Shown here: piece after piece, positions 5,402 to 27,053 of the stretch
Numbering within the stretch: position 1 is the stretch's first letter
Layout of the letters: each line of letters opens with the position of its first letter
Assembly (NCBI GenBank): GCA_003021505.1
Contig: PXPT01000025.1
Coordinates: 1 to 47,395 of the forward strand
DNA length: 47,395 bases
Reading direction: 5' to 3'
Source: Cyanobacteria bacterium QS_4_48_99
GTDB lineage: Bacteria; Cyanobacteriota; Cyanobacteriia; Cyanobacteriales; Rubidibacteraceae
Program-made: the position numbers and the translations under genes
Notes under the pieces: generated by a model
Database searches by the model: none
What the model saw: only the letters and a program-made list of their open reading frames with translations
Told to the model about the DNA's origin: nothing

Positions 5402-5773
5402 ATGAAACGCGCAATCTTTTCTGGAATTGCTGTGGCGGGTGCTTTAATTGGCTTTCCAGCATTGGCTGCTAATCCTGCTCAGTCCGAGGAAGCACAACGA
5501 CTCCTATTAGCTCAACAACAGCCTGGTAGCGGTCAGCAGCAACCAGGCGGTCAGCAGCAACCAGGCGGTCAGCAGCAACCAGGCGGTCAGCAGCAGCAAC
5601 CAGGCGGTCAGCAGCAACCAGGCGGTCAGCAGCAACCAGGCGGTCAGCAGCAACCAGGCGGTCAGCAGCAACCAGTCGGTCAGCAGCAACCAGGCGGTCA
5701 GCAGCAACCAGGCGGTCAGCAACAGTATGGCGGAGGTCAACAACCAGGCGGAGGAGTGAGAGCTCTCTGGTAA
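5402..5773 (+). CDS. Secreted Gln-Pro-Gly repeat protein of unknown function
   Basis: The 123-residue protein starts at an ATG 8 nt after a perfect AAGGAGG (5387-5393). Residues 1-22 form a signal peptide ending in a signal peptidase-like ALA. After a short linker (NPAQSEEAQRLLLA) the rest is about a dozen copies of GGQQQP, with one four-Gln variant, one PVG variant, and a closing YGGGQQPGGGVRALW. The DNA repeats with an 18-bp period. I recognise no domain. Composition suggests a disordered, extracellular or periplasmic protein, perhaps matrix- or wall-associated; that is inference only. Signal, ribosome site and promoter argue that it is a real gene. Confidence 0.7.
   Translation: MKRAIFSGIAVAGALIGFPALAANPAQSEEAQRLLLAQQQPGSGQQQPGGQQQPGGQQQPGGQQQQPGGQQQPGGQQQPGGQQQPGGQQQPVGQQQPGGQQQPGGQQQYGGGQQPGGGVRALW
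5531..5720. repeat. 18-bp tandem repeat inside the secreted protein gene
   Basis: The unit is GGTCAGCAGCAACCAGGC. Most copies are identical. One carries an extra CAG triplet and one has a single substitution (Gly to Val). Because the period is a multiple of three and no frame of the unit contains a stop, long false ORFs appear on the opposite strand. Confidence 0.95.
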
Positions 5774-25923: not shown

Positions 25924-26364
25924 CGAATCGACGCTCAGTGCTGAGGGACAAAGTGCCCAACGCGCCTGCTAAATGTAGTCTATCCCACTGCAAACCACTA
26001 TATTAATCATTTTGTAATTTTCAATTTTTATTAAGTATTTTCACTTTCGCCACCACTCCGTCAACTCAGTAGAGTAGTGATATCTGATTTCTAATCTCAG
26101 GCGATGCGATCAGTAAAACTTTTCTTCGCGTTCTCTGCTACCGACAGCTCACAGCGGGGAATTACTTCGGCACCCGTGTCCTCGTATTTGCGGTTGATTA
26201 AATTTCCCCAGCCTCTGGAAGTGAGGGAAATCGATGTATTCCTTACCAAATCAAAGATTGTGATAAGGGCTTTGTTGCTTCCCTCACACTCCTTTAGTTA
26301 GTTTCACCTTTTCACCAACGGTCAGAGCAGGCTCCGTCGCGCGAGCAGCAGAGTAATCTCTGAC
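25924..26364. other. Gene-poor spacer downstream of the small membrane gene
   Basis: I find no supported gene. A 65-codon plus-strand frame at 26104-26301 has no ribosome site and no recognisable content. A 7-bp inverted repeat GTCAGAG (about 26318) / CTCTGAC (about 26357) lies just past the stop of the 31-residue gene and could end its transcript, though no T-run follows. Confidence 0.5.
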
Positions 26365-26460
26365 TTATTTACTGCTTGATTCGCCAGCAAAGTAAGCCCA
26401 GGTTCCAATGGTGGCAGCTAGAAGCCAGCCCATAGCCAACACTGCAACTAAATAAATCAT
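26365..26460 (-). CDS. 31-residue single-span membrane protein
   Basis: The minus strand reads MIYLVAVLAMGWLLAATIGT followed by WAYFAGESSSK and stop. A perfect AAGGAGG (plus-strand 26468-26474) lies 7 nt before the ATG, about as strong a start as any in the window. One hydrophobic helix fills residues 2-25, with a short polar C terminus. Size and shape match the small subunits of photosystems, cytochrome b6f, NDH-1 or terminal oxidases, but I do not recognise it as any specific one. A 6-bp hairpin (CAATAC/GTATTG, 26483-26499) lies just upstream of the ribosome site. The gene is too short for ordinary ORF cut-offs. Confidence 0.7.
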   Translation of the reverse strand: MIYLVAVLAMGWLLAATIGTWAYFAGESSSK

Positions 26461-27053
26461 CTTTGAGCCTCCTTGTGAGTATCAATACTTAGAGTATTGC
26501 TTTACTTGCATAACCTAACAACAGGAACAAGCCACTGCAATATTTATTAATAGAATCGAGAGATTGTTACACAAATAAACAGATTACTCAGATTCCTCTG
26601 CCTACGCTTGAACCAACAAAAATCCACTCCTTGCTTATGATCGGATCTTTGCCGTTTCTGACTTGATTGATAAAGTTGGACAACAATGAGAAAGCGAGTA
26701 GGATAGCTCAAAAATCTGAGACACCCGCCTCAACCGGGAAGGCACAAAAAACAGATTGAGTTCGTAGCAAGTTTCTACCTTGTATTGGGTTTGCCCATAG
26801 CCTACTTACAGCGTTTCTCAGAATCAGAGGTTAAAGGAGAAATAAGTGAGGTGCGATCGCATGATAAGAAGTGAGCGCGTGAGTGTGTTTGAATTTTTAA
26901 TCTCACTCCTCACCTCTTCCCTCACGCCTGCCGAAATTAGATAGCGCCCAGATACGGAAAACCGAATTGTAGTAGTGTTTCAACTCATCTAAAATGAATA
27001 TAAAGGTCACGAAAGACCAAAACCTAACTAAATTAACTTAAACTTATAGAGCC
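26461..27053. other. Divergent spacer between the 31-residue gene and DUF1825
   Basis: Apart from the leader of the small membrane gene, this holds a GAAGTGAGCGCGTGAGTGTG repeat (about 26869-26889), CTCACTCCTCACCTC units (about 26909-26925), a HIP1 site near 26854 and the DUF1825 promoter candidate. A GGTC/GACC hairpin lies at about 27006-27020. No gene was found. Confidence 0.55.
26967..26995 (+). promoter_or_regulatory. Candidate promoter for the DUF1825 gene
   Basis: TTGTAG (26967-26972), a 17-nt spacer and TAAAAT (26990-26995) match a sigma70-type promoter about 55 nt before the start codon. Confidence 0.45.

Follow-up and report, generated by a model that had tools for sequence, protein, structure and literature searches.

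The 47,395-nucleotide stretch of the Cyanobacteria bacterium QS_4_48_99 genome analysed here (the window) carries on its minus strand a 31-codon gene for a short, probably Psb35-type, one-helix membrane protein that is under purifying selection. Related short proteins (short forms) are encoded in other cyanobacteria behind a common predicted promoter. We tentatively propose, with slightly less than even confidence, that they make up an unnamed minimal Psb35 subfamily that would act as a conditional photosystem II (PSII) assembly or repair factor within an undescribed small regulon that includes an SDR oxidoreductase and has a rigid promoter.

The 31-codon gene and its conservation

The open reading frame (ORF) runs on the minus strand from an ATG at 26460 to a TAA ending at 26365, and its predicted product is MIYLVAVLAMGWLLAATIGTWAYFAGESSSK (31 aa). 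At 96 nt, it is slightly longer than the customary 90-nt floor of gene calling. The initial annotation of this DNA, made from the sequence alone, had reported the ORF; on reading the sequence, we recovered the same coordinates and residues and added the strand, which had been left unstated. It had also described AAGGAGG 7 nt from the start, and this Shine-Dalgarno sequence is indeed present at 26474..26468 (minus strand), separated from the ATG by ctcaaag. The Shine-Dalgarno alone is weak proof of a gene, for the window contains seven ATGs with AGGAGG upstream, and not all of these start a gene.

We read 56 short-form loci, all in Cyanobacteriia, which encode proteins of 28 to 48 aa and carry a Shine-Dalgarno sequence in every case (56/56). 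Their consensus is GWLLAATIGTWAYFA; the next residue is mostly G or N, and the one after it E, D, or K. Short forms were found in records of Nostocales, Leptolyngbyaceae, Oscillatoriales, Gloeocapsa, Cyanothece, Pleurocapsa, Myxosarcina, and Waterburya. Their distribution across cyanobacteria is patchy: when the order was sampled evenly and judged by short-form scores, about 35 of 389 genomes (~9%) had at least one. No relatives were found in the viral contigs and phages that we searched, nor in the plasmid records.

To measure selection, we pooled 11 separate pairs of genes (325 codons), which gave a dN/dS of 0.13 and 49/21/129 differences at the three codon positions. In 2000 random placements of an equal number of changes, the share of amino-acid changes was never this low. 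Among the closest records, the window gene had a dN of 0.22 and a dS of 1.3 against a Nostocales metagenome-assembled genome (MAG), and a dN of 0.28 and a dS of 0.5 against G011. These comparisons show that the short form is under purifying selection as a protein. The two checks that the initial annotation had proposed, conservation of the frame in related genomes and purifying selection on it, therefore both came out in favor of a gene. Though in-frame stops were reported for some matches, the stop sits just past the natural C-terminus in the loci that we read, and we rejected a pseudogene reading of these matches on that ground. A chance ORF with a lucky Shine-Dalgarno, as the seven AGGAGG-preceded ATGs might suggest, is ruled out almost completely by the 56 homologous short ORFs with Shine-Dalgarno sequences, the dN/dS of 0.13, and the common promoter described below; the ORF at 26460..26365 is thus well supported as a genuine gene.

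We found no conserved gene neighborhood across members overall; neighbors are mostly unrelated, with lineage-specific links only, such as carB in part of the Pleurocapsa group or a HIT-type protein and RecR in one Leptolyngbya-type family. The gene reaches up to six copies per genome, some of them on plasmid-like contigs. For example, one genome (G535) holds six copies (L175-L180), five of them on plasmid-like contigs of 344 to 394 kb (C2, C3, and C5); most of the promoter is kept at each copy, and at several a PadR-type regulator gene lies about 260 nt downstream on the opposite strand.

Relationship to Psb35

The initial annotation could not match the protein to anything known, yet it does match the Psb35 and Psb35-related families of PSII proteins. 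In NCBIfam, the window protein hit NF047380 (Psb35-related, 75 aa; E 2.8e-7, residues 1-29 aligned to model positions 1-29) and NF047378 (Psb35; E 0.004). Membership thresholds were missed for both models, with 30.7 bits against a curated cut-off of 80 for NF047380 and 16.6 bits against 40 for NF047378; because these scores are so far under the cut-offs, we place the window protein outside both subfamilies. When 31 short-form members were scanned, 25 matched NF047380 and 18 matched NF047378, and in profile-profile comparisons the short set matched the 75-aa set at E 1.7e-12 and Psb35 at E 2.3e-6. Only some 26 residues of the window protein take part in the similarity; almost all lie in the membrane helix, a kind of segment whose composition inflates apparent similarity.

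AlphaFold2 predicts one helix for the window protein (residues 2-30, mean pLDDT 89), in keeping with the one-helix membrane protein of small-subunit type that the initial annotation had envisaged. One face of this helix shows the G-xxx-A-xxx-G pattern, and the helix closes with the aromatic W-A-Y-F; roughly six polar residues form a stub behind it, and the stop codon comes after GESSSK. The G-xxx-A/G-xxx-G helix core is present in all 49 distinct short forms and all 26 Psb35 sequences, and 26 of 29 sequences of the 75-aa form have small-xxx-small-xxx-small at the same place. The window protein contains the core of the Psb35 superfamily, namely G, an aromatic residue, small-xxx-small-xxx-small, and G[TS]-x-A-[YW]-[FY]. 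Diagnostic residues separate the three groups (GSIAWYNSK in Psb35, GTQAYF(R/L)GE in the 75-aa form, and GTWAYFA(G/N)(E/D/K) in the short form). The N-terminal helix of the 75-aa form aligns with the short form end to end (GW-x2-A-x3-GT-x-AYF), but its 45-residue tail (GEQxKPIHERNW...) is absent from the window protein, and the residue after YF is A in the short form but R, L, or M in the 75-aa form. Psb35 itself (Ssl2148 of Synechocystis; NF047378, 46 model positions) shares the helix core G-xxx-A-xxx-G[ST]-x-A-[YW]-[FY], whereas its invariant tail outside the helix, NSKRPxGWE(xKERP), is absent from the window protein. Because this part (NSKRPxGWExKERP) is lacking, partner binding by the window protein may differ.

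In a tree built on 26 columns, the three groups cluster apart, and the two longer groups each form one cluster with 98 and 100% support; a single short-form clade was not rejected (p-AU 0.81), with little resolution inside groups from so few columns. Taken on sequence, the short forms very probably belong to the wider Psb35 family, and the lack of both tails and the missed cut-offs mark them as an apparent third, shortest branch outside NF047378 and NF047380 as defined. Pfam returned no match above cut-offs for the window protein or the short-form set, and we found no name or model for the subfamily in Pfam or NCBIfam. We also found no mention of the branch in the open-access papers searched, though it may have been described earlier elsewhere.

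A decayed or truncated 75-aa Psb35-related gene would account for the match of residues 1-29 to the N-terminus of the 75-aa form, and a search of the window's genome found a canonical Psb35 (C86:24115-24252) and no intact 75-aa form. Such an origin is nonetheless very improbable, as the short form occurs in dozens of genomes, often beside both full-length Psb35 and an intact 75-aa gene, is under purifying selection, and is set apart by diagnostic residues and by a promoter that differs from that of the 75-aa genes. Since the short and 75-aa forms coexist in many genomes, we regard the short form as a paralogue rather than a truncation.

We also compared the window protein with other small membrane proteins. 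Hlips (HliA/B, ScpC/D) offer a likeness in manner of working only: they are small proteins with one helix, found in PSII assembly intermediates. Psb35 has been described as related to the Hlip group (PMC9145668), but the chlorophyll-binding ExNGRxAM motif of Hlips is absent from the 31-residue window protein. Searched against all PDB chains, the short-form profile found no small subunit of PSI, b6f, NDH-1, or a terminal oxidase; the only weak match was green-lineage PsbW (E 0.013), followed by unrelated chains. The local match to green-algal PsbW (the PSII 6.1 kDa protein; LGWVIAGTLGTiWAiYF) requires two insertions within the helix and was not found with the 75-aa or Psb35 profiles, and we rejected PsbW homology as probably a chance similarity. 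Given the lack of a small-subunit match in the PDB, the window protein looks like a relative of a PSII assembly factor and not a structural subunit of PSI, b6f, NDH-1, or an oxidase. The initial annotation had placed it in the size class of small photosystem, b6f, NDH-1, or oxidase subunits; the one-helix type holds, and the search lends no kinship to the PDB small subunits of PSI, b6f, NDH-1, or oxidases.

Promoter, leader, and 3' end

The whole predicted promoter of the window gene spans 26571..26512 on the minus strand. Its putative -10 box, TAGGTT (26512..26517), was assigned from position and conservation, and a -35 box, TTGCAG (26535..26540), lies 17 nt from it. The conserved element TTAATAAATA (26541..26550; family consensus TTAAGAAATG) abuts the -35 box, and a further conserved element, TGTAACAATCT (26561..26571), lies 10 nt before TTAATAAATA and is a probable operator half-site. 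TTAAKAAATRTTGC occurs only once in the whole genome of the window.

Nearly all members share a predicted layout of TGTAACAATTT, 10 nt, TTAAGAAATG, TTGCAG, 17 nt, and TAGGGT. The upstream region scores for a promoter in 55 of 56 loci, a few of them weakly. TTAAGAAATG stands directly before a -35-like TTGCAG or TTGAAT, which is followed by a spacer of 17 nt (46/55 loci) or 18 nt and then by TAGGGT or TAGATT; TGTAACAATTT lies exactly 10 nt further upstream in 39 of the 44 loci where a copy is clear. Together, TGTAACAATTT and AAATGTTGCA make up an inverted repeat, suggesting that a dimeric regulator reads the promoter. The promoter core was found once each in the window's genome, G176, and G238, always at the short gene. 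A general regulon defined by the exact core in the window's genome was rejected, there being one site only; it was a longer and looser pattern, applied across the class, that revealed the SDR link described below.

Stress-induced scp genes carry HLR1, the site for RpaB (PMC6331805). We found no HLR1/RpaB site at the short gene; the best candidates in the window had 5-6 mismatches. The promoter of the short form differs from that of the 75-aa genes, which contains a weakly HLR1-like TTGTTACATTTATTTACAT. Many of these genes (L032-L059) have TTGTTACATTTATTTACATAA-like repeats before the start that resemble HLR1/RpaB sites; the best HLR1-like scores upstream of 75-aa genes beat those of shuffles, and overall the scores were mixed.

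The hairpin that the initial annotation had seen just upstream of the gene is CAATACT-CTA-AGTATTG (7 bp; 26483..26499, minus strand), about 10 nt before GGAGG. It is better than 98% of shuffles of its 34-nt stretch, and the folding of the whole leader is only slightly above shuffles (z -0.9). Many relatives have a stem in the corresponding position but with another sequence (combined P 5e-5, one locus per cluster); two Cyanothece-type copies, for instance, have GATAAGT/ACTTATC and AATAAGT/ACTTATT. The hairpin is absent in the Pleurocapsa group, where leaders are shorter. Right after the stop codon, a stable hairpin without a T-run (26321..26364, minus strand; -20.2 kcal/mol, z -1.2 only) could possibly mark the 3' end of the transcript.

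A short predicted transcript with a leader hairpin might instead be a translated regulatory leader or act as RNA, the peptide itself being of little importance. In this connection, the first Shine-Dalgarno ORF behind the SDR promoter described below is in many cases a poorly conserved 12-codon leader. We consider this reading improbable for the short form in view of the strong protein-level selection (dN/dS 0.13); moreover, the window gene stands alone, with no obvious controllable gene directly downstream, and Rfam held no family matching the window gene or its relatives.

SDR link and proposed function

We searched 388 genomes with a long, looser promoter pattern, allowing at most 2 mismatches. 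Matches were found in 39 of the 388, and the reversed control gave only about 10 sites. Of the matches found elsewhere than at the short gene, many point to a single SDR oxidoreductase, and at three loci (G591, Pleu_H4, and G527) the SDR gene itself follows the short gene on the same strand at a distance of 234-709 nt. At the SDR loci, the distance from promoter to SDR start is 290-890 nt. The first Shine-Dalgarno ORF after the promoter is exactly 12 codons long in 8 of the 14 SDR loci read and 8 codons long in two, and the 12-codon ORF is possibly a leader peptide of fixed length. These 12-codon ORFs (L196, L197, L198, L209, L227, L228, L229, and L230) include MLYIHLGSTPIR, MLVSTHCSLPIR, MRYVAPDALPAG, and MFLIAADASPVH, lie about 100-125 nt after the promoter start, and show little sequence conservation. 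In genus g115 (L222-L226: G139, G195, G351, G270, and G326), a second promoter copy precedes an ORF of ~120-140 aa (MQLPFSEAD...VVKQTIDDLEAQGLLMLFDRHDQVAKRL) for which no Pfam match was found.

Psb35 (ssl2148) associates with the CP47 assembly module, stabilizes the module and its HliA/B, and raises stability in the dark (PMC9145668, PMC11449106). We see about an even chance that the short form is a minimal Psb35-type helix that packs on a PSII assembly partner and is expressed from a condition-specific promoter. It would insert in the thylakoid membrane as a single helix, and its small-residue G-xxx-A-xxx-G face would have as its packing partner a helix from either the CP47 assembly module or the Hlips bound to it. 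In whatever condition induces its promoter, it could thereby stabilize intermediates of assembly or repair, supplementing or replacing the longer Psb35 paralogues. Weighing against this role, the short form is patchily distributed, its gene neighbors are mostly unrelated, and the genes that share its promoter (SDR and the g115 ORF) are not known PSII factors.

A real one-helix protein of Psb35 ancestry could alternatively now serve an SDR-tied membrane process, such as stress-induced lipid or redox metabolism. The promoter architecture upstream of the SDR gene in many genomes and the three loci with SDR directly downstream fit this idea. We nevertheless hold it to be unlikely: the helix core is still Psb35-like, SDR was not found at E<=1e-40 in the window's genome and several other short-gene genomes, and in three genomes with both genes (G010, G026, and G052) the SDR locus had no promoter match.

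PSII assembly relies on a large number of small one-helix proteins, and their list is still growing, with Psb34 and Psb35 as recent additions. The short form is just the helix core common to Psb35 relatives and so offers a clean test of whether a G-xxx-A-xxx-G helix alone is enough to bind CP47 or Hlips, and its dedicated promoter gives a handle on an apparently undescribed cyanobacterial regulatory circuit.

Elsewhere in the window, 5402-5773 on the plus strand encodes a protein that looks secreted; it contains a long tandem repeat of GGQQQP, its start is preceded by AGGAGG, and the repeat also keeps antisense frames open.
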